Source: an uncultured Chitinophagales bacterium
Lineage (GTDB): Bacteria; Bacteroidota; Bacteroidia; Chitinophagales; JAHDHT01
Direction of reading: 5' to 3'
Length of the DNA stretch: 45,778 nucleotides
Assembly: GCA_938023075.1 (NCBI GenBank)
Contig: CALHDG010000100.1
Location: forward strand, 1-45,778
Positions 1,445-45,778 of this stretch are shown here, in pieces (the first letter of the stretch is position 1; each line of letters starts with the position of its first letter). The translations under genes and the position numbers were made by a program. Below the pieces are notes generated by a model, which was given only the letters and a program-made list of their open reading frames with translations, was not told where the DNA came from and made no database searches.

Positions 1445-1450
1445 TTATAG

Positions 1451-7320: not shown

Positions 7321-7507
7321 CGGCTGGTTGAACTTGGTTTGATATGGATATAACGGATGCCTTTCAAAATAATCACAGGCAGAAGCCAATTATTTGTAAA
7401 ATAAGGATATGACAGACCGTAGTTTTCCATAAAATGTAACATCATTAAAAAATAGATGGTTAACAAACGAAAGGGGCAGGTCGCTTGAATATTTCAATTG
7501 AACGTCA

Positions 7508-25050: not shown

Positions 25051-27771
25051 TTATTCTTTTATAAGATGAATAAATCCACTCAAATCTTGAGCAGCAAATT
25101 CTTGCCCGGTTATATCCAATTGAAATACGATGCCTTCATAAAAATATACTCCATTGGATAAGGCTTGACCGCGTCGGTTAGTACCATCCCAATTAATATT
25201 AGGATCGCTTGTTTCAAAAACTAAATTACCCCAACGGTTAAAAATTTTCAAATCAATGTTTTGAACAAAGCGGTTTTTAATGGGTACCAATAAATCGTTA
25301 CTGCCATCATCATTTGGAGTAAAGGTATTGGGCAATTCATATTCAAAACAATTTTCAACGCACACTATATTGGTTCGAGTACTTTCATTGTTAAAAGAAT
25401 CAACCGCGGTAACCGAATAACAACCAGCAATTACATTTGCAATAAAATGTTGATATTGCGTTTGATTAACATCTTGAATATTTTCAATCAGTTCGAAATC
25501 ACTATTATTGTCGGGAGCATAATAAACGTTATAGCCAATTAAATCTTCATCTCCACAAGCGGTAATTGGGTTGTTCCAGCTTAAATCATTTCTAAAGTTT
25601 TCTGCTGTCCATTCCATTAAATTGGCATTGCAATCGTTTGTTACCGTTAAAGAGGGTACACAAGGTGCCAAAGTATCAATAGGTATAGCACATTGTATTT
25701 GTGAAAGATTAATTAATGGATCAACAATTTCAGGAGTTTGATAAGTACCATCGGCTTCTGTATAATAACAATAGGTTAAACCATTGGTTAAATTTTCATC
25801 GGTATACGTGGGTCTATTCGATATGCCAATAGAATCAAAATTACCCATAGGAGAATCGGACCGGTATATAATATATTGATTGTTTTGCCAAGGCACCTCT
25901 AAGTTAAAACTTAAATTAACCTGAGAAGGAGCAGGCATTGCATCTAAATATATAGAGGAAGCTATATTAGTATTACCGACTAACTCTCCATTGGCATAAA
26001 ACCCAATTTGGTAAGTATAGCCATTTTCTAAAGTGTTCAATAAATTATCATTAAAAATAGTATCGTTTGCGAGCGCGAAGGTTGCTGCCGGATTGGTTTC
26101 TGTAATCAATTCAAAATCGGTATTACCGATGCCCGTTGATCTAAATATTTTATACACATAGGGCGGTACATTAAAGGTGGTATCTAATGCCACCGGATTA
26201 GGTTTTGACCAAGCCACATACATTTGCCCATTAGTAGCATCGGTTTGCTGAACGCTTACATTGGTAATAACCGGTACGTCGCTTGGCAGAAAAACACAAG
26301 CTCCGTTAGAAGGCACACTTTGTATTTCATTAAGCGGAAAGCCACCCAAAGAAAGTTCAGCAAAATTTGCTACTATTCGATAAGTATAAGAAACACCTTT
26401 TAAAGCGGTTTCATCCAAATATTCAAAAGTTTCTATACCATCTTCTAATAATGTATAACCATCTAAGCGGCTATCAATTTCACAAGGGTCAACATTAGTG
26501 GTATCGCAACCTTGCCGGCGCAAAACAGAAAAGCCATTAAATTTCTCTGCCTCAAAACAAGCATAGGGCGATTGCCAGTTTAATAAGATAGAACTATTGT
26601 TGATGACTTCGTAAGTCAAATTTTCAGGCGCAGGAGGCACAACCGTAATTAGCCAGGTTTCTAAATCTGCCAAAGTAATGTGCGATGAACTATTGGGGTC
26701 TTCATCTTCCGCTTTTATCACAGCAGTATAGGGTTGATTTAAAATATGATCACAATAGGTTTGCCAGCTAAACAATCCTTCAGTTAAACCTGCTTGCATA
26801 TTAATTATATTAATTTCAGAAGGCAATGAATCTAATTCAAATGAACCACCAAAACCTTCCAGGTTAATTACGAGATCATCATCGGTTACCACAATAGCTT
26901 GTTGAAAATAAGAGCCGGCAATAATACAAGTGTCTCTTAAGTCTGCAATTTCTGGCGGTGTGTTATCGGTCTCTTTTACAATAATTTGCATATCCCTTCT
27001 TAAAGTACCAATACAAATACCATCTCTAAATTCACTTACTACAATAGCAATGTTATAGATGCCGGTTTGCTGAGGCGCATCCCAAATAAATTCACCCGTT
27101 GCCGCATTCAAAGTGTAGTTGTTATCCATGCCCGGCATAATTCCATTTGGAAAGATATAATTCAGCGCATCATCTTCTACACTAATTTTGGGTACAACCA
27201 ATTCAAAATGTAAACTGTCGCCATCAATATCAAAAGCATTTGGATTGTGAATGTATGGAATGCCCAAACCGGCAAAATCAATAGGCGGTTGCAACAATAC
27301 GGGGCTGTTATTAAAACTATAGAACTGTGGATCTAATATTTTTAAGGTGTTTTCAATATAAAAAGGTTCATTCATAGAGTTACCAAAATTAATGTTGATG
27401 ATGCTGTCAATTCTATTTAAATCCTGCATCCATAGCAAATATTCGCCCGGACCGGGATAGCTATGAATACCGCTGTAGGTATTTTTTTTTATATCGTTAC
27501 CCACCGATTCTCCATCAAAATTATTATCTACCATTGGTCCGTTATTTCTGCCTAAAATAGATTCTGTATTATCACCCCAATGGATAGTTAAGCTATCTCT
27601 ATCTACATTGCTGCTTTCTTTAGTATAAGTAGTTATAATCACCTCGTAGCGATAGCGGTTATCCGCTTCAGGCTTATGTATATAAGTAATTTCGCCCGCC
27701 CGGTTATGCGTTGCAAAAATTTGAGTACCGCAAAGTATCATACCTACTATAAACAGTATTGGTTTTTTCAT
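25051..27771 (-). CDS. Large secreted protein with T9SS type-B (gliding-associated CHU_C) sorting domain
   Basis: The 906-aa protein has a signal peptide (MKKPILFIVGMILCGTQIFA). Its N-terminal region begins with THNRAGEITY, typical of a Bacteroidetes surface-protein family. PKD/cadherin-like segments follow (FDIDGDSLHFEL; ATGEFIWDAPQQTGIYNI; about 180-270), then fibronectin-III-like parts (PENLTYEVINNSSILLNWQS, about 385-405, and several later). The last 90 residues are the gliding-motility-associated C-terminal domain: LPNTFTPNDDGSNDLLVP, LKIFNRWGNLVFE, NGVYFYE, LSGFIHLIKE. Such proteins leave through the type IX system and need PorP/SprF-like partners. ATG 27771 is preferred to the TTG at 27786. 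It is divergent from the giant repeat gene. Confidence 0.88.
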   Translation of the reverse strand: MKKPILFIVGMILCGTQIFATHNRAGEITYIHKPEADNRYRYEVIITTYTKESSNVDRDSLTIHWGDNTESILGRNNGPMVDNNFDGESVGNDIKKNTYSGIHSYPGPGEYLLWMQDLNRIDSIININFGNSMNEPFYIENTLKILDPQFYSFNNSPVLLQPPIDFAGLGIPYIHNPNAFDIDGDSLHFELVVPKISVEDDALNYIFPNGIMPGMDNNYTLNAATGEFIWDAPQQTGIYNIAIVVSEFRDGICIGTLRRDMQIIVKETDNTPPEIADLRDTCIIAGSYFQQAIVVTDDDLVINLEGFGGSFELDSLPSEINIINMQAGLTEGLFSWQTYCDHILNQPYTAVIKAEDEDPNSSSHITLADLETWLITVVPPAPENLTYEVINNSSILLNWQSPYACFEAEKFNGFSVLRRQGCDTTNVDPCEIDSRLDGYTLLEDGIETFEYLDETALKGVSYTYRIVANFAELSLGGFPLNEIQSVPSNGACVFLPSDVPVITNVSVQQTDATNGQMYVAWSKPNPVALDTTFNVPPYVYKIFRSTGIGNTDFELITETNPAATFALANDTIFNDNLLNTLENGYTYQIGFYANGELVGNTNIASSIYLDAMPAPSQVNLSFNLEVPWQNNQYIIYRSDSPMGNFDSIGISNRPTYTDENLTNGLTYCYYTEADGTYQTPEIVDPLINLSQIQCAIPIDTLAPCVPSLTVTNDCNANLMEWTAENFRNDLSWNNPITACGDEDLIGYNVYYAPDNNSDFELIENIQDVNQTQYQHFIANVIAGCYSVTAVDSFNNESTRTNIVCVENCFEYELPNTFTPNDDGSNDLLVPIKNRFVQNIDLKIFNRWGNLVFETSDPNINWDGTNRRGQALSNGVYFYEGIVFQLDITGQEFAAQDLSGFIHLIKE

Positions 27772-28042
27772 AATTTTATACACCAACTTGAAAGCGATTT
27801 TAAGTGTAAAAAACGAAATTTTCTCATAATTATTTGAATAAATGCTTTTCTAAATGATTTTCGTAATCTGTAAACCAACTTAAGGCTTTAAACATAGTGC
27901 GCTGAAAAAGTAACTATATACTTTGGAGTTCCGTACATATACTGACTATAAAACTGTACAAATAGGTAATGATAGTCGTGCAGTTGTAGTAAGCATAAAA
28001 GGTTAAATAAATTAAGCAATACTAGGTTAAGTAAATTTCAAA

Positions 28043-31000
28043 ATGATTGAATTATCAAATTTTTCTATTAAGCACAAGTTAGGTGGAATTGTCATAAAAT
28101 TAATTATAATTATATTAAATTTTCAAATAAATCAATCGCATGCACAAACAGACGATTTAGATTGGAATGATGATTTCAATTTTATTACCGGAGCAGGCAC
28201 TTATAATTATACAACAGAAGGTGACGTTAATTGCCTGTTTTCGGCAGCGTTAACGGTTGGTAATATTGATTTAGATCCTCGGTTTGGAATCATAACAGAA
28301 CCGAACAGAGCACTGCCCGATTCGGACGGTGATGCTGTAGTGCTTGATGTGTGGGGTACGCTTAGCCAAGAAAACGTTACCAACAGCATAAATGTTAGTT
28401 TCGGTGAATGTTTAACCGGCGTTAATTTTGGCATTACCGATATTGATTTGACAGAAGCCATTGCTATTAGAGGATTAGACTGCAATGGAAATTTTGTGTA
28501 TCCTACTGTAACTCCAGTAGGTGCTGCCAAATATTTAATATACGATGCGCTGTCAAACAATTGCATCAATTGCGGAGGCTTTGCTTTTCCTTTAGTCATA
28601 TTTAATTGTTTTGCTTTTCCAAATTGTGCTATTCCTAACGCCCCTTGTACTAATAATCCAATACCCAACTACCTAACCTTTGTAGGTAGTGGAGATAATG
28701 ATAATAATTTAAACACAACAGTAATTTTAGACTTTGGTACACAACAAATTAGCGGCATAGAGTTTTTATACAGCTTTGTAGATTTTGACGGAGCTTATGA
28801 TTGCCCTGATGCAACCAGCAATAATAATGAAGTATCTGGCATATCTGGATTTGGTACTCCTGGAGGAATGGAAATAATACATTTGCAAATAGGAGAAATA
28901 TTATATGATACGCCACCTTGCACAACCGATGCTTTAGATTGGAATGATAATGGAAATGCACCGAATGGCACTGGCATCTATAGTTATTCAAACTTAGGTA
29001 ACCCCAATTGCACATTTGGTGCTGAGTTAGAAGTAGGAAACAATTTTAATGTAGACCCCCTCTTTGGAACAACTACTGTAACAGGTTTGGGATTGCCTGA
29101 TACTAATGGAGATGGAGTTGTATTGGATGTTTGGGGAGAATCAAATAACAATAATGTTAACTTCTTGTCTCTTGTTTTCGATAGATGTTTAACCGGTGTA
29201 AGATTCGGAATTACTGAAATTGATTTAGCCGAAACAGTGGGTATTAGAGGGATAGATTGTAATGGAGCATTTGTATATCCTGCAATATCTGCACCTGGCA
29301 ATCCCAATTATTTAATCTACGATCATTTAACAAATAATTGTACAAATTGCAGTGGTTTTACATTTCCTGTTACAGCAAGTGATTGTATAGGTGTACCTAA
29401 TTGTGTGGTACCTAATAGTCCATGCACTAATAATCCATTAATGAATTATCTATCTATTGTTGGAGGTGGCGTAAACAATAATAACATCAATTCAACCGCC
29501 ATTTTAGATTTTGGCACACAACAAATATCAGAAATATATTTGTTGTATGGCTATATAGAAAATGATGGTGCTTATGATTGCCCAAATGCTTCAACTAGTG
29601 TCAATGATATTTCCGCTATAGATGGTAACGGCATTGTTGGAAATGTAATATCACATATACAAATAGGTGAAATTATATTTGACGAATATTCTATCTGCCC
29701 CTCAACCGAAATAAATGTGACTAAAAGTATTTCAAACGGACCTACCTTAAATTCAGATGGTACTTATGATGTTACTTACAGTATCCAAGTTGAAAATACC
29801 GGTGTTGACCCGGTTACTAACTTACAAATTAATGATAATCTTATTGCTTTCGCTCCTATAAACAGCACACTCATCACTATAACAGGTGGCGCATTTACAG
29901 TAAATAATAACTATGATGGAACAAGTGATTTTATCATAACCAGTGGAACCAATAATCTTGCGGTAGGGCAAAGCTTCAGTTTCGATTTATTAGTAAACTC
30001 TGGAGGTTATTCAACTTTACCTGTTAATAGAAATATTGTATTGTTAAGTGGAGAGGATAGTTCTGGCAATATTATAATTGGAAGATCTTCGGTAGTACCT
30101 GCTTTTCCACTTGCTATGCCAAGCGTTCAAATAACAAAATCTTTACAAAGTGTACCAATATTGAATGCCGACGGTACTTATGAAGTTACCTATAATGTTC
30201 TAATAGAAAATACTGGAACTACAACGCTTAGCAATGTTCAAGTTACGGATGTTTTAACCGCATTTGCACCAGTTAGTTCTGCTAATATTACGATTAATAC
30301 AGGCAACATAACAGCCAATCCAAATTTTGACGGTTTAGGTGATTCTAATCTGTTAACAGGTGCAGATATACTATTAGCAGGTGAAACAGCGACTTTAAGT
30401 TTACAATTAATAATAGGTCCTTATAGTACACCACCAGTAACAACCAATAATACAGTAGAGGTAACAGGTGAGGATGATTCCGGTAATCCTGCTATGGATA
30501 CTGATGCAGTGCCAACATCTTTTGTAGCACCAATGCCGGCAATTGATATAGTAAAAACCATAACAAGTAATCCGGCACTAAATTTAGATGGTACTTATGA
30601 TGTAACATTTGGTTTTGCTATTGAAAATACCGGAGATCAAAATTTAACTACTATTGGATTAATGGATGACTTAAGTGCTTTTGCTCCCATCAATTCTACA
30701 AATATTATTATTAATAATGGCAATGTAACGGCTAGCATGCTTTATGATGGCACAAGCAATATTAACTTACTAAGCGGAGCAGATAACATGACTCCTGGTG
30801 AAACGGCTATAGTTAGTTTAGAGGTAAATATGGGTCCTTTTACAACTCCTGTTAGTGGTGTAAGCAACACCGCCGATGTTTCTGGAATAAGTCCCGCCTC
30901 TTCAACCGTTACCAATAATAGTTCTGTTGTACCTGCTTTTTTGGCAGCTGTATCAGATGTTAGCATAACCAAAACAATTGCCTCTAATCCAAGATTAAAT

Positions 31001-34000
31001 GCTGATGGCACTTATGAAACAACTTTTGATATTCAAATTGAAAATACAGGTAATATTTCGTTAAACAATGTTCAAATAACAGATAATTTAACGGCTTTTG
31101 CTCCGGTTAATTTTAATAGTATTTCTGCAACCTCAATTAACATTAATACAAATAATAATTTTAATGGTTTAACCGATTTTAATCTGTTGGTTGGAACCGA
31201 CACTTTATTACCCGGCGAAACCGCTAATTTGAGTTTAAAGGTAAATGTAGGACCTTATGCTACACCTCCAGATTCTATTGATAACACAGCGGCAGTATCT
31301 GGAGAGGATAATTTTGGAAATCCTGTTTCTGATACGCATACTGTAGCAACACCATTTGATGCCCCAATGCCGGCTATTGATATTGTAAAAACTATATCAA
31401 GTAACCCGGCATTAAATGCTGATGGCACCTACGATTCAGTGTTTAACTTTGCCATAGAAAATACGGGCAATCAAAATTTAAGTAATGTTCAGTTTACCGA
31501 TAATTTGATTGCATTTGGACCGATTAATTCAACGAGCATTGCTGTTATAAATGGAAACCTAACGGCTAATGCCGGTTTCGATGGTTCATCAGATCAAAAT
31601 TTACTAAACGGTGGAGATAACCTTGCTCCGGGTGAGACCGGAGTATTGAGTCTTCAAGTAAATTTAGGTCCTTATAATACACCAATAAGTGGTATTAATA
31701 ACCGGACAGATATTTCAGCTACTGATCCTGCAGGAAGTGCCGTTACAGATATTAGTCTAATTGCACCCATATTTCCAACACCCACATCCGCTATTAATTT
31801 GGTAAAAACAGTTTCTTCAAACCCAACATTAAATGCTGATGGCACCTATGATGTTGAGTTTAGCTTTGTAATTGAAAATACAGGAGACCAGAATTTAGAT
31901 AATGTTCAGATTGTCGATAATTTGAGTGCTTTTGTGCCTGTAAATTCAACAAGTGCCAGCAGCATAACTGGAAATATATTGTTCAATCAAAATTATGATG
32001 GAATAACTGATGATAATTTATTAAATGGATTGAGTAGCTTGTTACCGGGTGAAACTGCTTCAATCAGTTTATCTGTTAATATGGGTTTGCATAGTCCTGC
32101 TCTTACCGGAGTAGATAATCAAGCAATCGTTTCAGCTACTGATCCATCTAATGCGATGGTAAATGATATGGATTTGGCTACTCCTGTATTTCCAACACCT
32201 GCACCAGCAGTAAACGTCACAAAAACAATTTCTTCTAATCCTATTTTAAATACTAATGGCACATATGATGTAGTGTTCAATTTTGTAATTGAAAATACCG
32301 GAGACCAAAATTTAAATAATATTCAACTCACTGACAATTTAAGTGCCTTTGCGCCAATTAATTTAGTAAACTTAGGTTTAGTAAGTGGAACGCTCTCTAC
32401 AAATATAAACTTTGATGGTACAACTGACTTTAACATACTTGGTGGTGCAAATACCTTGTCACCCTCAGAAACAGCTGCTATTAGTTTAACATTAAATATA
32501 GGACCTCACAATCCAACTCTTATAGGATTAGATAATCAGACGGATATTTCAGCAACGGATCCTTCAGGGGCAACGGTAAATGATATGGATACAGCTACTC
32601 CTGTATTTCCAACACCTGCACCAGCAATTGAAGTTATTAAAACGGTTGGTTCAAACCCAAGCTTAAACGTTGATGGAACCTATGATGTTATATTCAATAT
32701 TATTTTAGAGAACACAGGAAATCAAATTATAAATAATATACAAATAGAGGATGATTTAAGTGCTTTTGCTCCTATCAACAACATTAATACAACAATAATA
32801 GGAGCACTACCGCTTAATTCAAATTACGATGGAGTTACCGATATTAATTTGTTAGGTGCTATTGGCATTTTATCTCCTAATGAAAATATTACCATTAGCC
32901 TATCGGTTAATATGGGTCCACATAACTCCACTATAAATGGTATTGATAATATGGTTGATGCTAGTGCTACCGATCCTTCAGGTTTAGCCATAGGCGACTC
33001 CGATTCTGCACCTCTAGTTTTTCCTTTGCCAGCACCTGCCATAGAAATTGTAAAGTCCATTTCTTCTAATCCTACATTAAATTCAGATGGTACTTATGAT
33101 GCCATATTTAGTTTTACCATAACCAATACAGGCAATCAAAATTTAAACAGCATTCAAATTACAGATGATTTAAGTGCTTTTGCTCCAATAAATTACACCA
33201 ATATCGTTCAAGCGGCTAGCAGCCTTACCGCAAATATTAATTATAATGGTTTAACAGATATTACCCTATTAAGCAATGCGGATATGCTGGCTCCTAACGA
33301 TGCCGCTACGCTTTCTATTGAGGTTAATGTAGGACCGCACAACCCCACTATTAGCAATGTAAATAATATAGCTGATGTAACTGCAATAGATCCTTCTGGT
33401 ACAGCAGTAAACGATTCTGATGTTGCCGATCCACTTTTCCCTACTCCTAATCCGGGTATTGAAGTTGTTAAAACCGTTTCAAGTAATCCGGTGCTTAATA
33501 CAGATGGAACTTTTGATTTGACTTTTAAGTTTGCGCTTAAAAATACAGGCGATGTTGACTTAAGCAATATTCAATTGACCGATAATTTAAGTGCTTTTGC
33601 TCCAATCAATTCCATTTTATATGCCAATGAATCGGCAAATTTATCTCCGAATTCTGTTTTTGATGGTTTAATTAACGTCAATACCTTAACTGGTGCTGAT
33701 GTTTTGGCACCAAACGAATCTGGCTCATTTGAACTTGTGTTAAATGTTGGTCCGCATAGTACAACTATAACAGGTATTGCGAATACATGCCAGGTAAATG
33801 CTACCGCACCAAATAGCGAAAGCGTCAATAATAATGATGACGTTACACCAGCTTTTCAAGCCACTATACCAGCCTTAAAAATTGATAAGACTTTGTTTAG
33901 CGGACCTGATTTAAATACCGATGGCACTTTTGATATTACCTTTAAAATAGAAGCACAAAATACGGGTAATGTAAATCTTGATGATATTCAAATAGTAGAT

Positions 34001-37000
34001 GATCTTTCTACGTATGCTCCGATAAACTCTGTTAATATTAGTAATTTTTCTGCCAATGTATCTCCAAGTGGAAGCTTTAATGGCACTTCAAACATCAATA
34101 CTTTATTAGGTAATGATAGCTTTGTACCGGGTGAAACTGGAATACTGTATATAAATTTAAATGTTGGTCCTTATTCTACTATACCTGCTAATTTAACTAA
34201 CCAGGCTGAAATTACTGGTTTAGACCCATCTAATAATACCGTTAGCGATACTGATGCACAACCTAGCCCAATTACACCTCCCAATTCTAGTATTGATGTA
34301 GTTAAAACTTTAATCAATGCTCCATTTTTAAATACGGATGGAACTTACGATCTTGCCTTTAAAATCGATATTGAGAATATAGGCGATGTCAATTTATCTA
34401 ACCTACAAGTAACCGATGATTTAACGGCTTTTTCACCGGTTAATTCAGCCAACATTGGTAATACTTCTGCTAATTTATCTCCAAATGGCCTTTATAATGG
34501 TTTAACGGATATTAATACCTTACTGGGCAACGACAATTTTGTTCCAGGACAACGAGGATCGTTTTTTATTTATGCCAATGTAGGTCCGTACAATAATCCA
34601 CCGGCTGTTTTTACCAATATTGTAAACGTAACCGCTATTGACCCATCTAACCAAAATGTAAATAATACAGATAATGCTGATGTATCGGTAAGCTCTCCAT
34701 TGTCTTCAATTAAAATTGCCAAATCAATATTAAACGGACCAACTTTAAATAATGATGGAACCTACAATATTACCTTTCAGATTAACTTAGAAAACAGTGG
34801 AGATGTAGACTTAAATAACATTCAGGTTACCGATGATTTGAATATTTTTGCACCAGTTAACACTGCCATTATCTCCAATACCTCTTCAAATCTTTCTCCG
34901 AATAGTAACTATAATGGAATTTCTAACATTAATGCTTTAAATGGTAATGATACTTTTGTTCCGGGTGAGACGGGTCGTTTTGATATTGTAGTAAATATTG
35001 GTGCTTACCCAACTACATTAACAGGATTATCGAACAATGCAGATGCTACTGGAATTGATCCTAATGGTATTTCAGTGGCTGATAATGCGCTTACTCCAGT
35101 TGTATTTCCGTTGCTTAATCCTGGTATATCGGTTAGTAAGCAAATATTAAGTGGGCCAAACTTAAATAATGATGGAACTTATGATATTTCTTTTTTAATT
35201 AATTTAGAAAATACTGGAAATGTTGATTTAATGAATATTCAATTAGAAGATGATTTGAGTATGTATGCTCCGGTAAATCAAGCTAATATTAGCAACACCT
35301 CTGCTAACCTTTCTTCTAACGGGGCATATAATGGTATTGTAATTACCAATACTTTAATAGGAGTAGATGTGCTAAACCCTGGCGAAACCGGTGCCTTTAA
35401 TATTAATGTAAACTTTGGTCCCTATGCACTTACCCCAACAGGTTTAGAAAATGAAATTATTGCCTTTGCCAACGATCCTGCGGGCATGGAGCATACCGAT
35501 ACGGCATCTGTTCCTTCTCCAATTCTTTCCCCTTCGCCTTCATTATCCATTAATAAATCAATTTTAAATTTACCCTCAATTAATACTGATGGAACGTACG
35601 ACATTATATATGATATGTCCATACAAAATACCGGTAATGTCAATTTAACAAATGTTCAGATAATTGATGACTTATCCGTTTTTAATCCGGTAAACAATGC
35701 TTCGGTAATCAATACTTCTGCTAATCTTTCTCCTAATGGTTTGTACAATGGGCTCGCAAATACCAATACTTTAACCGGTACTGATGTTTTGCTACCCGGA
35801 CAAACAGAATCGTTGGAAATATTAATGAACATTGGCCCATTTGTTACAGCACCACCAATTATTAACAACGTAGGAATGGTGAACGGCATAGACCCGGGAG
35901 GAAACAATATTGTTAGTACCGATACGGTGCCGACGATTATTCCAATTCCGGGTCCGCAACTTAGTGTAACAAAGCAACTATCGAGCGGACCAGACTTAAA
36001 AGACGACGGCACTTATGACATGAGCTTTGACATCATGGTTGAAAATTCAGGAGACTTAATTCTCAATAACATTCAGGTAACTGATATTCTTAGTCAGTAT
36101 AATCCTGTAAATAATGTAATCATAAATAATCTTTCATCTAATCTATCTCTTAACCCAAATTATAACGGTATTAGCGTTTCTAATACCTTAACGGGTACCG
36201 ACTCTTTCGCTCCTTCAGAAAGTGGTAATTATGAGATACTGGTAAATGTTGGACCTTTTGATCCTATTCCGGCAGCCGGTTCATTATCAAACATAATTGC
36301 CGGTACAGCTACAGACCCAAGTGGAAATGTGATAACTTCGACTGATGAAATGTTAACCGATTTCCCAAATTTAAATCCATCTATATATATAAATAAGACT
36401 TTTATAGATGATGCATCTCCTAATGCCGACGGTACTTACGACATTACATTTTTTATTGAAATTGAAAATACCGGTATAGTAAATTTATATGATATTCAAA
36501 TTATAGATGATTTATCTTTATATAATCCGGTTAATTCGGTAACATCCTCCAACTCTACCGGTAATATTGCCTTAAACAGTTTGTACGATGGCATTAGCGA
36601 TATCGCATTACTGGTAGGTAATGATATATTTAGTCCTGGAGAAACGGCTAACTTCGAAATGACGATGAACGTTGGTTCTTATGATTCCAGTGTTGATTTA
36701 AATGCTTTGCAAAATGAAGTTACGGTCACTTCTAATGATCCTAATGGCAACCTTATTAGTGATAACGATATTGAATTAACTGATCTTCGGTCTATTTTTC
36801 CAACTATTGACATTCAGAAAACGCTAACCGATGGACCAAGCCTTAGAACAGACGGCACTTACGATTTAACTTTTTCATTAAATGTGATTAATAACGGTAA
36901 TGTAAACTTGTCAAACATTCAAATTGTTGATGATTTATCGCAGTATGCTCCTGTTAATTCCATCGCCATTACCAATACCTCAGCAAATCTTTCTCCTAAT

Positions 37001-40000
37001 GCTTCATTTAATGGTATAAGTAATGTAAATGCCCTATTAGGTATTGATGGTTTTTCACCCGGCGAGTTAGGTAGTTTAGATATTGTTTTGAACGTTGGTC
37101 CATATTCAACTTTGCCTCCAAATGGTGTTATGGTTAATGAAGCAACCGCTTCTGGTACAGATCCTAATGGAGTTTTGCAAACTAATGTGTCTTCTGCTAC
37201 TTCAAACTTCCAAAACTCTATGGCAGGTATTGACATAACAAAAACTTTGTTGAATACACCTCTATTAAAAACAGATGGAACAATTGATTTAAGGTTTAAC
37301 ATTAACGTAAGAAATAATGGAGATGTGAATTTAAATGATTTGCAAATTGAGGATGATTTAACCGTGTTCAGCCCCATTAACAGCGTATCCATTATTAATA
37401 CTTCTGCTAATGTGTCGCCTAATTCTGCCTATAATGGAATTAGTAATGTAAATACTTTACTTGGCTTAGATGACTTTAGCCCAAACGAAACCGGCTCATT
37501 CGATTTGTTGATAAATGTAGGACCATATGATCCAACACCAGAAAACATAGGCAATGCTGCTTTAGCTAAAGCTACTGACCCTGCTGGTAATTTGGTTCAA
37601 GATAATGATGAAGTACCCACCACGTTACCTAAACAATTACCGGCAATAGATGTTATTAAATCATTAAAAGGACAACCCGTTGTAAATGCTGACGGAACTT
37701 ACTCGCTTACCTATAATATTAAAGTGAATAATATTGGTAATGCAGACCTTAATAACTTACAACTTATTGATGATTTAGCCTCCCTGTCGCCTGTAAACAA
37801 TGTTTCATTTTCTAATACTTCGGCAAATATTTCAAGTAATTCGGCATACGATGGTATAACAGACACCAATATATTATTGGGTACCAATACCTTAATACCT
37901 GCAGAAAGTGCATCTATAGATTTAAATGTAAATTGCGGTCCATTTAATCCAACGCCATCTAATTTAACTAACTTGGTTGAGGTTACAAGCACCGACCCGA
38001 GTAACATACTAATTGCTGATAAAGATTCTGTGGATACTGCATTACCAAACACCAGTGCATCCATTCAAGTTTTAAAAGAAATTATATCGGGTCCTACACT
38101 GTTAAGCGATGGCACGCAACGCACTGATTATGCAATTACCATCACCAATAATGGAAATGTTGACTTAAACAACATTCAGGTAATAGATGACCTAACTGCT
38201 TTTGTACCGGTTAATTTGGTTACCTTATCAAACATATCCGCTAATTTATCATTCAACCCAGGATATAATGGCACTTCAAATATGAATATTTTATTGGGGA
38301 ATAACAGCCTTGTTCCCAACGAAACAGCTTCTTTACAAATTAGTGTAAATACGGGTCCATATGCATTTCCAATTTTTGGCTTAAGCAATATTGCTGCTGC
38401 GTCAGCTACCGATCCTTCTGCTAATGTTGTAACCGACCAAAGTGCCGTTTCTACAGATTATGATGTTTCCAGACCAGAACTGGGTTTGGCTAAAGCTCTA
38501 ACCAGTGGGCCGGTGTTGTTATCGGATGGAACGTTTATTATTAGTATGCGTTTGTTAGTAGAAAATTCTGGTAATGTTGACATCTTTAACATTCAAATAA
38601 CGGATGACCTAATGACTACCTTTAGTTTGCCACCAACACCAAATATAAATTATGTTTTAATATTAAATAGTTCTAATAATTTTAATCCTAATACTAGTTT
38701 TGATGGTCAAGCTGTACAAAATTTATTAATTGGCAACGATAATTTATCCGTAGGTGAAATAGGGTTTGTAGATATAGAAATCAATTTTGGACCAATGCCG
38801 CCCAATACCTTTACTGTTTTTCAAAACACGGCTAATGTTATTGGTACTGCTCCATCAGGTTTTGAAGTGGAAGATAATTCACACGATGGACTAAATCCAG
38901 ATCCGGAAGGAGACGGACCCAATAACAATGATGACCCTACCCCAATACCTACCAAGCCGCCGTTAGGAGAAATAGGAATCGCTAAAGAACTTACCTCAAT
39001 TTCTAATATTTTGCCAGATGGAACCTATGACATTTTGTACACGCTTTTTATTGAAAACAGTGGTCCTGTAATTGTAACCGATCTGCAAATTGTTGATAAT
39101 CTATCAACCGCCTTTTCAGGAATTGCAGCCGTACCTATAAATGCAGTTAGCCTTACAAACGCCTCCAGTAATTTATCACCAAATGGTGTTTATAATGGCA
39201 TTACCAATACCAATGTTTTATTAGGCATTGATGATTTTGCACCAGGAGAAACCGGCTTAATTCAAATTAAAGTAAATGTAGGTATCGTTCCACAACCAGG
39301 TGGCGATTTTGCTAATCAGGCATTCGTAAGCGGAATTGATTCTGACGGAAGTCCCATACAAGATAGCTCAGATGATGGTTCCGATCCTGATAAAGATGAC
39401 GATGGTCCGCTTAATGATAACCAACCAACCATAGTTACCTTAGAACCCGGTTTATCTTCTATTGAAATATTAAAAAGTTTAATAAGCCCACCAGTGTTGA
39501 ATGAAAATGGAACCTACGATCTCATCTATAATCTACAGGTTCAAAACACCGGTTATGTTCCTATAGAAAATGTTCAAATTTTAGATGCCCTGATAAGTTT
39601 TTCACCACTTCAACAACCTATTATTTCTAATGTAACTTCTAACTTAAATGTTAATCCGGTATATGATGGTATTGTTAATGTGAATCTATTAACAGGAAAT
39701 GATGAATTGGCTGCCGGAGAAAGTGCCAGCTTAAATTTGGTACTAACTGTTGGACCTTTAAATGGAAATATTGATGAAATAACAAACTATACAATTGCTT
39801 CGGCAAATGATGACTCTGGCATTCAATTGTTTGATGATAGTTTTGTAATTACACCATTTGAAGCAAGTGAACCTAAAATAGACCTTGAAAAGAAATTGAT
39901 CAATGGACCTAATAGTAAGATAGATGGAACCTATGATATTTCATTTAGGTTAGAGTTAATAAATACCGGCGATGTGGTATTGAATAATTTACAAGTTTTA

Positions 40001-43000
40001 GATCAGTTGTCAGATTATGCGCCAATAAATTCAATCAACTTTTTAAACATCTCTTCTAATCTATCTCCCAATGGTTCTTACAATGGTTTATCAGATTTAA
40101 ATATGCTAAACGGTACTGATAGTTTTGTACCGGGTGAAGAAGGTTCTTTTGATGTAGCCATAAATGTGGGTCCATTAACTAACATACCATCCGATCTCAA
40201 AAATCTGGCGATGGCAAACGGAATAGACCCCGGAGGAAATAAAGTAAGCGATGAAGATGAGATTGAAACGCCTATTGATGCCTTTGAACCGGCAATCAGA
40301 ATTTTGAAAAACCTGATTAATGACCCTGTTCTAAACAATGACGGAACCTACGAATTCACCTTTTTAATTCAACTAATAAATGATGGTAATGTTATTTTAA
40401 ATGATCTTCAAATTACGGATGATTTAAGCAATTTTGCCCCTATTAATTCTACGGGTATTGTCAATGTCTCTTCAAACTTATCAGCAAATCCTGCTTTTAA
40501 CGGCATTACATCTATTAATTTATTAAGTGGTACCAATAGTTTTCAACCAGGTGAAAATGGTATTTTAAATTTGACGGTTAATGCCGGTCCATATGCTAGT
40601 ATTCCGGCTGATTTAAACAACATGGCAGAAGCTACTGCAATTGCTTCTTCAGGAGAAGCAGTAAACGATAATGATATTGCAGGAACACAAATAGGCAACC
40701 TTCAACCAGCTATTGAAGTACAAAAATCACTATTTGCAGGACCAGTTCTTAATCCAGACGGCTCTTATAAAATGAGTTTTTTAATTAGAGCAGAAAATAC
40801 AGGTAATGTAACTTTAAATAATATCCAACTGATTGACGATATAAGCAACTATGCTCCGGTAATTAATACAATTGTAACATTGCCTTCTTCCAATTTATCA
40901 ATTAATTTAAATTACGATGGTATAACCAACACCAATCTTTTATCTGGTGTAGATGTTTTAGAACCTGGCGAATCGGGTTTGTTGAATTTGGAGATAATTG
41001 CCGGACCATACCCAGAATTACCAGCCGATTCTGTAAACAGGGTAACTGCAACTGGTGTTGACCCGTTAGGAAATATTTCAACAATGTTAGACTCGGTTTC
41101 TACACCTTTTGAAAGTTTTGGAGATGCCAAATTAAATTTAGACAAACTGTTAATTGAAGCTCCGGAATTACAAGATGATGGAACCTATAATTTATCGTAT
41201 TTTATTACTGTTGGAAACATCGGTTCAGTTAACATAACCAATCTTCAAATTGAAGATGACCTATCTAACTTTCAACCGTTGAACAATGCTTTTATTAGTT
41301 CACCAACTTCTAATTTATCGCCTAATCCAACTTTTAATGGGATTAATAACATTAATACACTTGCCGGTGGCGATTTGCTTACACCAGGCGAAGTTGCATC
41401 GTTTAAATTAGAGTTAAATGTGGGTCCTTATGATCCGCCGGTAACAAATTTAATTAATTTAGCAAGAGCCTACGGAAATGAACCAACCGGAGATTTAGTG
41501 GTAGATGTAGATGATGAAGAAGCTAATTTTGAAGTGTACAGAGCCTCCATAAATGCCGATAAATTATTGATTGAACCGCCTGTTTTAAATGAAGATGGTA
41601 CCTACGATTTCATGTTTTTTATTAATCTTTCAAACACCGGTAATGTTGACTTAAGCAATATTCAGGTAATTGACGACCTTTCTGCTTTTGAGCCGGTTAA
41701 CGCTGCTTTTGTGGTTAGTCCTTCGGCAAATTTATCGCCCAATCCGGTTTTTGATGGTTTGTTTAACAAAAATACTTTACTCGGTAACGATTTTCTTACC
41801 CCTGGAGAAACCGCTTCTTTTGCCCTTACATTAAATGCCGGACCTTTTAATCCAACTCCCTCAAATTTATTAAACCTTATAAGGGTTACCGGTAATGATC
41901 CGATAAACAATGTGGTAGAAGAATTAGATGCTGAATTAAGTCCCGTTGATCCGCTCAATCCTTCTATATCGGTTAGCAAAACCATAAGCTCAGGACCTGA
42001 TTATAACAGCGATGGAACCTATGATATACTATTTACGATTAACGTAGAAAACACAGGTGATGTAATATTAAACAAACTACAATTAGTTGATGATTTACAG
42101 CAACTGCAACCAGTAAATACAGCAAGTATTATTAACAATACTCCTAATTTATCAAACAATTTTACTTACGATGGTTTAAGTGACAAAAATCTTTTATTTG
42201 GTTTTGATGAGTTGCAACCTGGTGAAAATGGTTCTGTTCAGATATTAATCAATATCGGTCCTTATATTACAGTACCAACAGGTGCAACAAATGCAGTAAA
42301 TGGGTTTGCTACCGCACCAAATGATCTTGTTGTGACCGGGCAAGACGAAATTCCGGTTATTTTACAAGATTTAGACCAAAGCATTGGTTTAGCAAAGCAA
42401 TTAGATGCGCTTCCAATATTAAATGAAGATGGTAGCTACGATTTACAATACAGTTTTATTGTTGAAAATACCGGAACTATTAGCTTAGAGAACATTCAAA
42501 TAACCGATAATTTAAGTCAGTTTAGCCCAATAAACCAGGCTGAGGTTTTATTTACCTCAAGCAATTTATCACCAAACGCATTTTACGATGGAACAGCTGA
42601 TATTGCCTTGTTAACTGGAATGGACAATTTACAGCCAAACGAAAGAGGCACTTTTACCTTAAGTTTAAATGTAGGACCCTATGTAACTGTACCTCAAGGA
42701 TTAACCAACTCTGCCACTGCTTCTGCAACTACTCCTTTAAACAATACTATTACAGATTTGTCGGATGATGGAATAATAACGGATAATTTTGAAGACGATC
42801 CAACACCTACACCATTTTCATTTTCAAATCCAAAATTAGAGGTGGTCAAAGCACTTTTAGAATCACCGAAAATGCAGTTAGATGGTAGTTACAATTTGGC
42901 TTTTGCCGTTACCGTTCAAAATACAGGTAATATCTTATTAAATAACCTTCAATTAGAAGATGATTTAAGTGCCTTCCAACCATTAAATGAGGTTCAGCTT

Positions 43001-45778
43001 TCAAACAATTCTTTAAATATTGATGTCAATTCAAATTATAATGGTATTACTGATTTTAATTTATTAAACGGGTCAGATGAGTTGAATCCATTGGAGGTAG
43101 CCCGGCTAAATATACATTTAAATGTGGGACCATTTGAAAATGACACCATCCTCAACAATCAGGTTTTTGCTTCTGGTATTTCAGTTGATGGAAATTTGAC
43201 AACCGATTTATCAGATGACAGAACCAATACAACCTCTGAAGATGACCCAACGCCTGCCGAATTTATTATTGAAGCGGCACAAATTGGTTTAGCCAAAACG
43301 GCAAAAAGTGTTGTACCGGCTACCACAGAAGGTCATCATTTAATAACCTATCAATTTGTATTAAAAAACACGGGTAATTTAATAGTAGATAATTTAAATT
43401 TAATAGATGATTTAACGGGCAGTATTGGTGTTGCTGGTTTGGCGTATTTGTTACCCTTAGCACAAACTCCGCAGCTAATTTCTTCTAATGCAACTTTAAA
43501 TCCACAAATGAACTTGTTATATGATGGAGATTTAAATGACAATTTATTTACCGAAAATACCGGCTTGTTAGAACCCGGTGAAAGTTTAACGATCGAATTT
43601 ACGGTGGAAGTTATGGACAATGAAATGAATAACCCTATTGTAAACAGTGCCATTGCCAATGCCAGAAGTACAGATGGCTCCTTGGTTGAGGATATTAGTC
43701 ACCAAGGCACCGTGCCCGATCCTGAAAGTGATGGTACAAGTGATAACAGTACGCCTAGTATACTATCTTTTAATACGATTGAGTTAGTGTTAGAAAAAAA
43801 TAGCAATGTTGTAGTTGGTGAAAATGCTGAAGTAGGTGACACCATAACTTATATTATTAATTTAATGAATGAAAGCCCGGTTGCTGCTACAAACATTGAA
43901 ATACTCGATCAAATGCCGGCTGAAGTTGAACTGATCAGCAGCACAACTACTATTGGTTCTTTTCACGAGTTTACCAATATTTGGACAATACCGGTTTTGC
44001 CACCTAATTCATTTAACCGGGTATTGTTAGATGTTATTGTAAAGCAAACAGGAGAGATCAGTAATTATGCATCTATTGAACATTTAGATCAACTCGATCT
44101 AAATTTAATTAACAATGCCGATACTACTTCTTTTCAAGCAATTGAAGCTTTTACAGAACCGGTTGCCGAATTAACACTAACTAAATTAGTCAATGAAGCT
44201 AATATCAATTTAAATGAAACTACAGATTTCAATATCACTGTTTCAAATGCCGGACCTGATGATGCGACTAATGTTGTAATTAGAGAATTATTACCTAATG
44301 GTTTAATCATTACCAATACGAATCCATCATCTGGAACATATAGTGCCATTACCAACTATTGGAACATCCCATTGGTGGAAGCTGGTGCTTCCGAAAGCAT
44401 AACGATTACCATGCGTGGTATGGAAGCTGGTTCCTTTACGAATCAGGCAGACATTATTGGCAGCGACCAACCCGACCCGGTAGAAGCTAATAATATAGAT
44501 GAAGCCATTGTATTTGTTGATGAATTGCCTCCACCACCTTCAGCAGATTTGTCAATAAATAAAATGGTTGATGTAAACACCATCGATGAAAATGAAACGA
44601 CTACTTTCACCATAGTTGTTTCAAATGCCGGACCTGATGAAGCTACCAACATTTTAATTGAAGAAAATTTACCAGAAGGTTTATCTTATCTATCTAATTC
44701 TGCTACTGTAGGTATTTTCACTACCAATAATGAAGAATGGTCAATCGAAAGCCTGCCTTCCGGAAGTTCGGCTACCTTAACTTTAGTTACTTTAGGAGAT
44801 AAGCCGGGCAGCTATATCAATGAAGTTGAAATTACAGAAAGTGATCAGCCCGACCCCGTCCTATCTAACAATACAAGTCAGGTAGATTTAGTAGTTGATC
44901 AAATTGTAGTACCCACGGCAGAATTGTCTCTTACAAAAACCGTCAATTCAAATGCCATACTGCAAAATGAAGCGACAACTTTTGAGATTATAATATCTAA
45001 TGCAGGACCAAATGTGGCAACTAATATTGTTGTTGAGGAGGTATTACCAGATGGTCTGCAATATGTAAGCCATAATTCATCACACGGAGGGTATAGCTTA
45101 GTTAACGGAGAGTGGATATTAAATTCGCTTCCTGTTGGCAATACCGCTGTACTCGAAATTGAGGTGCTAGGCATATCATCGGGCACAATTACTAATGAGG
45201 CAAGCATTATCAATACTGATCTCTTTGATCCGGTTGCAACTAATAATAGTGACCAAGCTACTGTATTTATAACCGAAGTTTTAGAACCTTATGCGGAATT
45301 ATCCTTAACTAAAACGGTTAGTAAAAATGCCATCAAGCAAAATGAAGCCACCAATTTTGAAATCATAGTCTCTAACGCCGGACCAGATGATGCAACAAAT
45401 ATCACCATTGAAGAAATATTACCAGATGGAATTGAATATGTTAATCATGTTTCGTCACACGGAGGTTATAGTCTCGTTAATGGAGCATGGAGTTTAAATA
45501 GGTTGCCTGCAGGCAGCACCGCAATCTTAAATATAGAAGTTATGGGCATTGATGCAGGAACCATCACCAACCAAGCTAACATTGTTAGCAGCGATCAGTT
45601 AGATGCGGTGCTGACTAATAACAGCGATCAAGCAGTCGTGTTTGTAGCAGAAGTTTTAGAACCTTATGCCGAATTATCCTTAACCAAAACCGTTAATGAT
45701 AATGCCATTATGCAAAACGAAACGACGGCTTTCAATATCTTAATTTCTAATGAAGGACCGGATACTGCGACTAATGTG
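28043..45778 (+). CDS. Giant repetitive secreted protein with DUF11-like repeats (partial, 3' end outside window)
   Basis: ATG 28043 opens a frame that I followed at many points to the right edge; every recognisable repeat lies in that same frame, giving at least 5,911 residues without a stop. A signal peptide (IVIKLIIIILNFQINQSHAQ) is followed by two cysteine-containing modules of about 259 aa (from about residues 36 and 293). About 33 tandem beta-rich repeats of about 139 aa begin near residue 551, and at least six classical DUF11 repeats of about 124 aa begin near residue 5,250. The protein is rich in Asn, Asp and Thr and very poor in Cys after the N-terminal modules. It is probably a surface adhesin exported by T9SS; the expected C-terminal sorting domain is outside the window. 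A near-consensus -7 box (TATACTTTG, 27917-27925) lies upstream. Confidence 0.93.
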   Translation, partial: MIELSNFSIKHKLGGIVIKLIIIILNFQINQSHAQTDDLDWNDDFNFITGAGTYNYTTEGDVNCLFSAALTVGNIDLDPRFGIITEPNRALPDSDGDAVVLDVWGTLSQENVTNSINVSFGECLTGVNFGITDIDLTEAIAIRGLDCNGNFVYPTVTPVGAAKYLIYDALSNNCINCGGFAFPLVIFNCFAFPNCAIPNAPCTNNPIPNYLTFVGSGDNDNNLNTTVILDFGTQQISGIEFLYSFVDFDGAYDCPDATSNNNEVSGISGFGTPGGMEIIHLQIGEILYDTPPCTTDALDWNDNGNAPNGTGIYSYSNLGNPNCTFGAELEVGNNFNVDPLFGTTTVTGLGLPDTNGDGVVLDVWGESNNNNVNFLSLVFDRCLTGVRFGITEIDLAETVGIRGIDCNGAFVYPAISAPGNPNYLIYDHLTNNCTNCSGFTFPVTASDCIGVPNCVVPNSPCTNNPLMNYLSIVGGGVNNNNINSTAILDFGTQQISEIYLLYGYIENDGAYDCPNASTSVNDISAIDGNGIVGNVISHIQIGEIIFDEYSICPSTEINVTKSISNGPTLNSDGTYDVTYSIQVENTGVDPVTNLQINDNLIAFAPINSTLITITGGAFTVNNNYDGTSDFIITSGTNNLAVGQSFSFDLLVNSGGYSTLPVNRNIVLLSGEDSSGNIIIGRSSVVPAFPLAMPSVQITKSLQSVPILNADGTYEVTYNVLIENTGTTTLSNVQVTDVLTAFAPVSSANITINTGNITANPNFDGLGDSNLLTGADILLAGETATLSLQLIIGPYSTPPVTTNNTVEVTGEDDSGNPAMDTDAVPTSFVAPMPAIDIVKTITSNPALNLDGTYDVTFGFAIENTGDQNLTTIGLMDDLSAFAPINSTNIIINNGNVTASMLYDGTSNINLLSGADNMTPGETAIVSLEVNMGPFTTPVSGVSNTADVSGISPASSTVTNNSSVVPAFLAAVSDVSITKTIASNPRLNADGTYETTFDIQIENTGNISLNNVQITDNLTAFAPVNFNSISATSININTNNNFNGLTDFNLLVGTDTLLPGETANLSLKVNVGPYATPPDSIDNTAAVSGEDNFGNPVSDTHTVATPFDAPMPAIDIVKTISSNPALNADGTYDSVFNFAIENTGNQNLSNVQFTDNLIAFGPINSTSIAVINGNLTANAGFDGSSDQNLLNGGDNLAPGETGVLSLQVNLGPYNTPISGINNRTDISATDPAGSAVTDISLIAPIFPTPTSAINLVKTVSSNPTLNADGTYDVEFSFVIENTGDQNLDNVQIVDNLSAFVPVNSTSASSITGNILFNQNYDGITDDNLLNGLSSLLPGETASISLSVNMGLHSPALTGVDNQAIVSATDPSNAMVNDMDLATPVFPTPAPAVNVTKTISSNPILNTNGTYDVVFNFVIENTGDQNLNNIQLTDNLSAFAPINLVNLGLVSGTLSTNINFDGTTDFNILGGANTLSPSETAAISLTLNIGPHNPTLIGLDNQTDISATDPSGATVNDMDTATPVFPTPAPAIEVIKTVGSNPSLNVDGTYDVIFNIILENTGNQIINNIQIEDDLSAFAPINNINTTIIGALPLNSNYDGVTDINLLGAIGILSPNENITISLSVNMGPHNSTINGIDNMVDASATDPSGLAIGDSDSAPLVFPLPAPAIEIVKSISSNPTLNSDGTYDAIFSFTITNTGNQNLNSIQITDDLSAFAPINYTNIVQAASSLTANINYNGLTDITLLSNADMLAPNDAATLSIEVNVGPHNPTISNVNNIADVTAIDPSGTAVNDSDVADPLFPTPNPGIEVVKTVSSNPVLNTDGTFDLTFKFALKNTGDVDLSNIQLTDNLSAFAPINSILYANESANLSPNSVFDGLINVNTLTGADVLAPNESGSFELVLNVGPHSTTITGIANTCQVNATAPNSESVNNNDDVTPAFQATIPALKIDKTLFSGPDLNTDGTFDITFKIEAQNTGNVNLDDIQIVDDLSTYAPINSVNISNFSANVSPSGSFNGTSNINTLLGNDSFVPGETGILYINLNVGPYSTIPANLTNQAEITGLDPSNNTVSDTDAQPSPITPPNSSIDVVKTLINAPFLNTDGTYDLAFKIDIENIGDVNLSNLQVTDDLTAFSPVNSANIGNTSANLSPNGLYNGLTDINTLLGNDNFVPGQRGSFFIYANVGPYNNPPAVFTNIVNVTAIDPSNQNVNNTDNADVSVSSPLSSIKIAKSILNGPTLNNDGTYNITFQINLENSGDVDLNNIQVTDDLNIFAPVNTAIISNTSSNLSPNSNYNGISNINALNGNDTFVPGETGRFDIVVNIGAYPTTLTGLSNNADATGIDPNGISVADNALTPVVFPLLNPGISVSKQILSGPNLNNDGTYDISFLINLENTGNVDLMNIQLEDDLSMYAPVNQANISNTSANLSSNGAYNGIVITNTLIGVDVLNPGETGAFNINVNFGPYALTPTGLENEIIAFANDPAGMEHTDTASVPSPILSPSPSLSINKSILNLPSINTDGTYDIIYDMSIQNTGNVNLTNVQIIDDLSVFNPVNNASVINTSANLSPNGLYNGLANTNTLTGTDVLLPGQTESLEILMNIGPFVTAPPIINNVGMVNGIDPGGNNIVSTDTVPTIIPIPGPQLSVTKQLSSGPDLKDDGTYDMSFDIMVENSGDLILNNIQVTDILSQYNPVNNVIINNLSSNLSLNPNYNGISVSNTLTGTDSFAPSESGNYEILVNVGPFDPIPAAGSLSNIIAGTATDPSGNVITSTDEMLTDFPNLNPSIYINKTFIDDASPNADGTYDITFFIEIENTGIVNLYDIQIIDDLSLYNPVNSVTSSNSTGNIALNSLYDGISDIALLVGNDIFSPGETANFEMTMNVGSYDSSVDLNALQNEVTVTSNDPNGNLISDNDIELTDLRSIFPTIDIQKTLTDGPSLRTDGTYDLTFSLNVINNGNVNLSNIQIVDDLSQYAPVNSIAITNTSANLSPNASFNGISNVNALLGIDGFSPGELGSLDIVLNVGPYSTLPPNGVMVNEATASGTDPNGVLQTNVSSATSNFQNSMAGIDITKTLLNTPLLKTDGTIDLRFNINVRNNGDVNLNDLQIEDDLTVFSPINSVSIINTSANVSPNSAYNGISNVNTLLGLDDFSPNETGSFDLLINVGPYDPTPENIGNAALAKATDPAGNLVQDNDEVPTTLPKQLPAIDVIKSLKGQPVVNADGTYSLTYNIKVNNIGNADLNNLQLIDDLASLSPVNNVSFSNTSANISSNSAYDGITDTNILLGTNTLIPAESASIDLNVNCGPFNPTPSNLTNLVEVTSTDPSNILIADKDSVDTALPNTSASIQVLKEIISGPTLLSDGTQRTDYAITITNNGNVDLNNIQVIDDLTAFVPVNLVTLSNISANLSFNPGYNGTSNMNILLGNNSLVPNETASLQISVNTGPYAFPIFGLSNIAAASATDPSANVVTDQSAVSTDYDVSRPELGLAKALTSGPVLLSDGTFIISMRLLVENSGNVDIFNIQITDDLMTTFSLPPTPNINYVLILNSSNNFNPNTSFDGQAVQNLLIGNDNLSVGEIGFVDIEINFGPMPPNTFTVFQNTANVIGTAPSGFEVEDNSHDGLNPDPEGDGPNNNDDPTPIPTKPPLGEIGIAKELTSISNILPDGTYDILYTLFIENSGPVIVTDLQIVDNLSTAFSGIAAVPINAVSLTNASSNLSPNGVYNGITNTNVLLGIDDFAPGETGLIQIKVNVGIVPQPGGDFANQAFVSGIDSDGSPIQDSSDDGSDPDKDDDGPLNDNQPTIVTLEPGLSSIEILKSLISPPVLNENGTYDLIYNLQVQNTGYVPIENVQILDALISFSPLQQPIISNVTSNLNVNPVYDGIVNVNLLTGNDELAAGESASLNLVLTVGPLNGNIDEITNYTIASANDDSGIQLFDDSFVITPFEASEPKIDLEKKLINGPNSKIDGTYDISFRLELINTGDVVLNNLQVLDQLSDYAPINSINFLNISSNLSPNGSYNGLSDLNMLNGTDSFVPGEEGSFDVAINVGPLTNIPSDLKNLAMANGIDPGGNKVSDEDEIETPIDAFEPAIRILKNLINDPVLNNDGTYEFTFLIQLINDGNVILNDLQITDDLSNFAPINSTGIVNVSSNLSANPAFNGITSINLLSGTNSFQPGENGILNLTVNAGPYASIPADLNNMAEATAIASSGEAVNDNDIAGTQIGNLQPAIEVQKSLFAGPVLNPDGSYKMSFLIRAENTGNVTLNNIQLIDDISNYAPVINTIVTLPSSNLSINLNYDGITNTNLLSGVDVLEPGESGLLNLEIIAGPYPELPADSVNRVTATGVDPLGNISTMLDSVSTPFESFGDAKLNLDKLLIEAPELQDDGTYNLSYFITVGNIGSVNITNLQIEDDLSNFQPLNNAFISSPTSNLSPNPTFNGINNINTLAGGDLLTPGEVASFKLELNVGPYDPPVTNLINLARAYGNEPTGDLVVDVDDEEANFEVYRASINADKLLIEPPVLNEDGTYDFMFFINLSNTGNVDLSNIQVIDDLSAFEPVNAAFVVSPSANLSPNPVFDGLFNKNTLLGNDFLTPGETASFALTLNAGPFNPTPSNLLNLIRVTGNDPINNVVEELDAELSPVDPLNPSISVSKTISSGPDYNSDGTYDILFTINVENTGDVILNKLQLVDDLQQLQPVNTASIINNTPNLSNNFTYDGLSDKNLLFGFDELQPGENGSVQILINIGPYITVPTGATNAVNGFATAPNDLVVTGQDEIPVILQDLDQSIGLAKQLDALPILNEDGSYDLQYSFIVENTGTISLENIQITDNLSQFSPINQAEVLFTSSNLSPNAFYDGTADIALLTGMDNLQPNERGTFTLSLNVGPYVTVPQGLTNSATASATTPLNNTITDLSDDGIITDNFEDDPTPTPFSFSNPKLEVVKALLESPKMQLDGSYNLAFAVTVQNTGNILLNNLQLEDDLSAFQPLNEVQLSNNSLNIDVNSNYNGITDFNLLNGSDELNPLEVARLNIHLNVGPFENDTILNNQVFASGISVDGNLTTDLSDDRTNTTSEDDPTPAEFIIEAAQIGLAKTAKSVVPATTEGHHLITYQFVLKNTGNLIVDNLNLIDDLTGSIGVAGLAYLLPLAQTPQLISSNATLNPQMNLLYDGDLNDNLFTENTGLLEPGESLTIEFTVEVMDNEMNNPIVNSAIANARSTDGSLVEDISHQGTVPDPESDGTSDNSTPSILSFNTIELVLEKNSNVVVGENAEVGDTITYIINLMNESPVAATNIEILDQMPAEVELISSTTTIGSFHEFTNIWTIPVLPPNSFNRVLLDVIVKQTGEISNYASIEHLDQLDLNLINNADTTSFQAIEAFTEPVAELTLTKLVNEANINLNETTDFNITVSNAGPDDATNVVIRELLPNGLIITNTNPSSGTYSAITNYWNIPLVEAGASESITITMRGMEAGSFTNQADIIGSDQPDPVEANNIDEAIVFVDELPPPPSADLSINKMVDVNTIDENETTTFTIVVSNAGPDEATNILIEENLPEGLSYLSNSATVGIFTTNNEEWSIESLPSGSSATLTLVTLGDKPGSYINEVEITESDQPDPVLSNNTSQVDLVVDQIVVPTAELSLTKTVNSNAILQNEATTFEIIISNAGPNVATNIVVEEVLPDGLQYVSHNSSHGGYSLVNGEWILNSLPVGNTAVLEIEVLGISSGTITNEASIINTDLFDPVATNNSDQATVFITEVLEPYAELSLTKTVSKNAIKQNEATNFEIIVSNAGPDDATNITIEEILPDGIEYVNHVSSHGGYSLVNGAWSLNRLPAGSTAILNIEVMGIDAGTITNQANIVSSDQLDAVLTNNSDQAVVFVAEVLEPYAELSLTKTVNDNAIMQNETTAFNILISNEGPDTATNV
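28148..29696 (+). repeat. Two tandem copies of a cysteine-containing N-terminal module (about 259 aa each)
   Basis: Copy 1 (about 28148-28922) and copy 2 (about 28923-29696) share the same order of motifs: LDWND, GDGVVLDVWG or DGDAVVLDVWG, CLTGVxFGIT, IRGLDCNG/IRGIDCNG, VYP, NNCxNCxGF, PCTNNP, ILDFGTQQIS, DGAYDCP and a closing HLQIGEI or HIQIGEI. Cysteine positions are conserved between copies, which suggests shared disulphides or metal sites. Confidence 0.85.
29697..43789 (+). repeat. About 33 tandem Ig-like repeats of about 139 aa (417 nt)
   Basis: Each unit opens with a 'V-x-K-T/S-L/I' strand and NxDGTYD, followed by an E-N-T-G or similar turn, NLxNIQxxDDL, APVN, a 'N-G-x-x-D-x-N-x-L' segment, PGETxxxxLxVNVGPY and a final linker with DPSG or similar. 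DGTYD-type motifs recur near 29757, 30170, 30588, 31004, 31420, 31838 and so on, about 417 nt apart, to about 38527. Later units near 38.9, 39.4, 42.8 and 43.2 kb are longer because of Asp-rich linkers. Units differ clearly in DNA sequence, so the array is old apart from some recently copied blocks. Confidence 0.9.
43790..45778 (+). repeat. At least six classical DUF11 repeats of about 124 aa
   Basis: From 43790 the repeat type changes. Units start near 43790, 44162, 44549, 44923, 45292 and 45668 with AELSLTKTV-like strands. They carry the DUF11 marks SNAGPD, ATN(I/V), LPEG or LPDG, a W near the middle, and an xLPxGSxA segment. The last unit is cut by the window edge. Units starting at 44923 and 45292 are especially alike (both with HGGYSLVNG). 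Confidence 0.88.

Follow-up and report, generated by a model that had tools for sequence, protein, structure and literature searches.

The closest parallel to the protein described here is the giant adhesin of Mobiluncus mulieris, a chain of 7,651 residues with 51 cross-linked immunoglobulin-like (Ig-like) domains (PMC10619420). Our subject is a giant open reading frame of an uncultured Chitinophagales bacterium (assembly GCA_938023075.1), whose product is likewise a single chain, of nearly equal length and domain number. The window, that is the whole stretch of 45,778 nucleotides analysed, is the complete contig CALHDG010000100.1 (C100) of a draft genome (6.12 Mb, 288 contigs, 97% complete), and it probably encodes the N-terminal three quarters of a fibrillar surface adhesin that is exported via Sec and the type IX secretion system (T9SS) and carries a head on a covalently stapled stalk. 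In both proteins an N-terminal head stands on an Ig-like stalk, covalently cross-linked in Mobiluncus and with cross-links predicted here. The C100 protein differs in its Gram-negative host, its probable use of the T9SS, its different head and its cadherin/Big_9 foot; the comparison of cross-links is confined to isopeptide triads, the only type looked for here.

The fibrillar adhesins with CLIPPER and CLIPPER_2 (DUF11 and DUF7507) domains share both the domain families and the triad with the C100 protein, whose long repeats are a longer variant, of 139 residues (PMC12617251). Both belong to the isopeptide families, and the bond has been seen in a DUF11 crystal structure; DUF11 arrays with a Por_Secre_tail are also known, but the survey drew on AlphaFold DB entries no longer than 1,280 residues, which put arrays as long as the present stalk beyond its reach (PMC12617251). 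Among Bacteroidota, SprB of Flavobacterium johnsoniae is likewise a surface protein of very large size; its tail is of type B and it comes with a dedicated SprF (PMC9143113), whereas the C100 protein has a type A-like tail and no SprF neighbour. Recognised huge bacterial proteins include some with DUF11 and some with cadherin domains (PMC11573180), and several genomes of the order have frames of 6,400 to 9,200 codons, thus size alone is ordinary for this group. An earlier note on this DNA, made from the sequence, proposed a giant repeat-built protein that rivals the largest T9SS adhesins in size; a giant surface protein built of repeats is supported, but frames of such length are frequent in the order and its size is not exceptional. 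We regard it as an unusually large member of an already known kind of adhesion protein, the new elements being complete triad conservation over 33 repeats, an orphan paired head, and a shared foot cassette; neither the triad nor the shared cassette figured in the earlier note.

The giant reading frame and its repeats

The frame contains 5,912 codons without a stop and is still open at the end of the window, in line with the minimum of 5,911 residues noted earlier; as the window is the whole contig, it is the assembly that truncates the gene, rather than the choice of window. Across the same stretch the other five frames have 165–751 stops each, and the chance of such a stop-free frame at the given base composition is about 10^-186. 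Minus-strand frames of 102–157 residues within the gene were taken as shadow frames.

The architecture agrees with the earlier description of duplicated Cys-containing modules, about 33 long Ig-like repeats, and a second block of DUF11 repeats. The N-terminus, read by eye, has a hydrophobic stretch and an SHA-Q site, and is followed by two head modules that hold 20 of the 22 Cys residues of the window part. Stalk A has exactly 33 units of about 139 residues, with a mean identity of 38% (44% between neighbours), and is followed by the DUF11 units of Stalk B. Two window pieces score 253.5 and 243.7 bits against DUF7507 (Pfam gathering cut-off 27), and three pieces score 133.8 to 660.4 bits against DUF11 (cut-off 24.6). 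Tandem Repeats Finder found nothing in the giant gene because the repeats are too diverged at the DNA level. With eight further DUF11 units on a second contig, C249 (discussed below), there are 13 complete DUF11 units, and the nearly Cys-free stalk would comprise at least 46 Ig-like domains in a row.

The isopeptide triad and the repeat fold

The 33 long repeats agree without exception in seven columns: three Gly, N29, K5, D42 and N109. The codons for the Lys, Asp and Asn of the triad vary synonymously across the repeats (for Lys, AAA in 26 and AAG in 7; for Asn, AAT in 18 and AAC in 15), so selection acts on the residues. The K-(D/E)-N pattern is kept in 12 of the 13 complete DUF11 units, and most of the repeats aligned from other genomes in the order have it in full; three of 11 aligned matches have no letter at the Lys position, and those alignments start late.

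Structure prediction of a repeat pair, a check suggested in the earlier note, gave a model with a mean predicted local distance difference test (pLDDT) score of 94.1 and an Ig-like, CnaA-like fold. Model residues 1–134 match residues 183–325 of the SpaD pilin domain (4HSS_B; Z 10.7, root-mean-square deviation 2.8 A, 128 aligned), and model and match together identify the stalk repeats as CnaA-like beta-sandwiches. The isopeptide residues of that SpaD domain are K187, D224 and N299 (PMC12617251). With the aligned ranges counted from their first residues, K5 and D42 are in exact register with K187 and D224, and N109 would match N299 provided that eight of the nine residues that SpaD has in net excess precede it, as judged from the ranges. 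Integrin alpha legs were the top result of the two-repeat fold search, which we read as a shared Ig-like fold without functional meaning, and a PDB sequence search with the repeats gave nothing useful.

We conclude from the alignments and the model that most or all stalk domains are competent for an internal covalent staple. The stalk could instead be an ordinary Ig-like spacer whose Lys, Asp and Asn are conserved to serve folding or hydrogen bonding without becoming covalently bonded, as in those DUF11 domains that are without the bond (PMC12617251), and the presence of Glu in place of Asp in most of the DUF11 units here would suit such a spacer; we nonetheless find it unlikely, given the invariance of all three residues throughout Stalk A and their register with a proven isopeptide domain.

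Continuation on contig C249

A strong match to the final 479 bases of the window lies at the end of C249 (78% identity over 478 bases, minus strand); this contig opens inside a 5'-open frame of 1,676 codons closed by a stop. Both orientation and frame agree with a continuation of the window frame, and C249 is the only contig besides C100 with strong DNA similarity to the window tail. The two ends have a 141-base stretch in common with five differences, and an exact overlap between them was looked for and not found. A partial DUF11 unit common to both ends (w6 in the window, the first unit on C249) is 96.4% identical. The first two DUF11 units of C249 are 91% identical in DNA and more distant units about 50%, thus the assembly broke in the youngest repeats.

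We infer from these comparisons, with strong support, that the two contigs join. The imperfect match of the ends could also be explained if C249 belonged to a second giant gene sharing a DUF11 block, the window frame being real but having another C-terminus, and two other giants of this genome (on contigs C73 and C197) are also cut at contig starts. This we consider improbable, somewhat more so than the ordinary spacer, as no other contig is strongly similar to the window tail, orientation and frame fit, and w6 is 96.4% identical to the C249 unit while the other paralogues reach only 33–36% identity (protein). With C249 as the continuation, the full protein most likely has at least about 7,541 residues: 7,541 if the shared unit is one unit, about 7,666 if the two copies are neighbours, and more if units are missing. 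The length is given as a minimum because the junction falls in near-identical DUF11 repeats.

Head, foot and shared C-terminal cassette

Searches of Pfam and NCBIfam up to E = 10 gave no match to the head modules, which are also unmatched elsewhere in the same genome and have no homologues in 100 relatives or in 395 Bacteroidota genomes. A head model built from two sequences is of low confidence (mean pLDDT 49.7; best Foldseek E only 0.01), and its carbohydrate-binding-module-like Foldseek matches are weak and were not used as evidence.

The C249 part adds a foot of Big_9 and cadherin-like modules with 29 Cys residues, and then the C-terminal domain. The last part of the protein matches TIGR04183 (type A) almost end to end (profile 9–71 of 72) at 14.1 bits, relative to a curated cut-off of 23, and scores 15.2 bits against PF18962 (cut-off 27); the last 91 residues have no match to the type B model TIGR04131 up to E = 10. 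The same foot and tail cassette, of Big_9/cadherin modules, an acidic spacer, and a type A-like tail, also ends the giants on C73 and C197, with 30–33% identity; these giants differ from the C100 protein in having other DUF11-type stalk repeats, and their N-termini are not assembled. Their tails score 20.8 (C73) and 19.0 bits (C197) against TIGR04183, and those of the sister genus, in frames of 1,597 and 1,470 codons, score 31.4 and 31.6 bits. Complete copies of the cassette are confined to this family, with three here and further ones in the one other genus of the family that was compared; other families match the Big_9 part only. Ahead of the foot, the C73 and C197 giants have short Cys-containing repeats (such as DCDNGGVSNAQEC).

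Export and relation to SprB

The genome encodes SprA (2,299 bits) and PorU (1,266 bits), providing the T9SS translocon and sortase, together with about 150 other TIGR04183 tails. With these genes and tails, and the passing tails of the sister genus, export by the T9SS is therefore likely, through what appears to be a divergent type A-like tail. In type A proteins the anchor is a covalent link to lipopolysaccharide, and in type B proteins it is a PorP-like partner (PMC9143113).

The earlier note had recommended following the frame past the contig in search of a sorting domain and a PorP/SprF-like partner. The type A-like tail on C249 answers the first part, but none of the eight PorP/SprF-family genes of the genome is on C100 or C249. 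The proposed T9SS adhesin is thus upheld as to its likely secretion route but not in its likeness to SprB; a gliding role is not supported, and for prey contact we found no evidence. An SprB-type gliding adhesin, a mobile filament on a PorP/SprF-like shuttle along a gliding track, is very unlikely: in its favour are very large size, SprA, the eight genes of the PorP/SprF family, and a GldJ-like protein that scores below its cut-off, but the tail match is weakly type A-like with none to TIGR04131, and a PorP/SprF gene, absent from C100 and C249, adjoins each of the type B giants on C27 and C168.

Other genes in the window and other giants of the genome

Type B tails end the giants on C27 (a frame of 5,178 codons) and C168, and a PorP/SprF gene follows each of the two. 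The divergent neighbour of the giant gene in the window also has a type B tail, with no PorP/SprF gene beside it. Near the contig start are genes of a Type III-B CRISPR (clustered regularly interspaced short palindromic repeats) system, followed by a CorA-type type III effector in two consecutive frames; these match profile positions 200–451 and 3–181 of the same models, and the gene looks interrupted or frameshifted. A ParE-like toxin scores just below its Pfam cut-off. Coordinates are collected in Table 1.

Table 1. Features of the giant gene, its neighbours and other giants of the genome. Positions are in the window unless a contig is named.
Feature	Position	Strand	Remarks
Giant open reading frame, 5' part	28043..45778	+	5,912 codons, no stop; most likely continues on C249
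Signal peptide-like N-terminus	28043..28147	+	Residues 1-35 (MIEL...IIIILNF...SHAQ); read from sequence
Head module 1, Cys-rich	28145..28918	+	Residues 35-292; module comparison, Cys positions
Head module 2	28919..29698	+	Residues 293-552; 55% identical to module 1
Stalk A	29711..43708	+	Residues 557-5222; 33 tandem 139-residue DUF7507/DUF11-like Ig repeats, each with Lys-Asp-Asn
Stalk B	43778..45778	+	Residues 5246-5912; five complete and one partial DUF11 unit; DUF11 (PF01345) matches
Giant gene continuation (most likely)	C249:40937 down to 35907	-	DNA similarity, orientation, frame
Cmr5, Cmr4, Cmr3, Cas10b, Cmr1	202-5419	-	Type III-B CRISPR genes
CorA-type type III effector	5698-6558 and 6634-7389	-	Two consecutive frames
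ParE-like toxin	7820-8125	-	22.2 bits; Pfam cut-off 23
Divergent neighbour	25051-27786	-	Type B tail, TIGR04131 49.4 bits
Giant with type B tail	C27:83000-102900		Followed by a PorP/SprF gene
Giant with type B tail	C168:1-6000		Followed by a PorP/SprF gene

Proposed model and implications

In the model that we propose, the protein would be exported by Sec and then cross the outer membrane by the T9SS through its divergent type A-like C-terminal domain, and would be anchored at that end. The 33 long repeats and at least 13 DUF11 units would form a rod of CnaA-like Ig domains in which the Lys of the first strand and the Asn of a late strand would lie where an intramolecular isopeptide bond can form spontaneously, catalysed by Asp or Glu. 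Stapled in this way, the rod would be inextensible and would resist proteases; for attachment, it would present the paired Cys-rich head modules at an estimated distance of roughly 200 nm from the cell, counting 4–5 nm per domain.

Several points weigh against this account. The isopeptide bond itself cannot be observed from sequence, and in addition to the predominance of Glu in the DUF11 units, one unit has lost its Lys. No exact overlap proves the join of C100 to C249, where some repeats are probably absent from the assembly. The protein's own tail falls under the curated T9SS cut-off, and the head, which has no confident fold, is proposed as adhesive from its position.

More tentatively, the protein may be a stapled T9SS filament of some 46 or more isopeptide domains with a new, lineage-specific paired adhesive head, in which the DUF11 zone near the anchor is still expanding and contracting, such that filament length varies between cells or strains.

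The locus illustrates how, in draft genomes, such genes break where repeats have been duplicated most recently. If the bonds form, the giant cross-linked adhesins known from Gram-positive bacteria would have a Gram-negative counterpart in this protein, one longer than the published isopeptide survey could see. It would also raise the question of how the T9SS, a mover of folded cargo, handles a chain of at least 46 domains once they are locked against unfolding.
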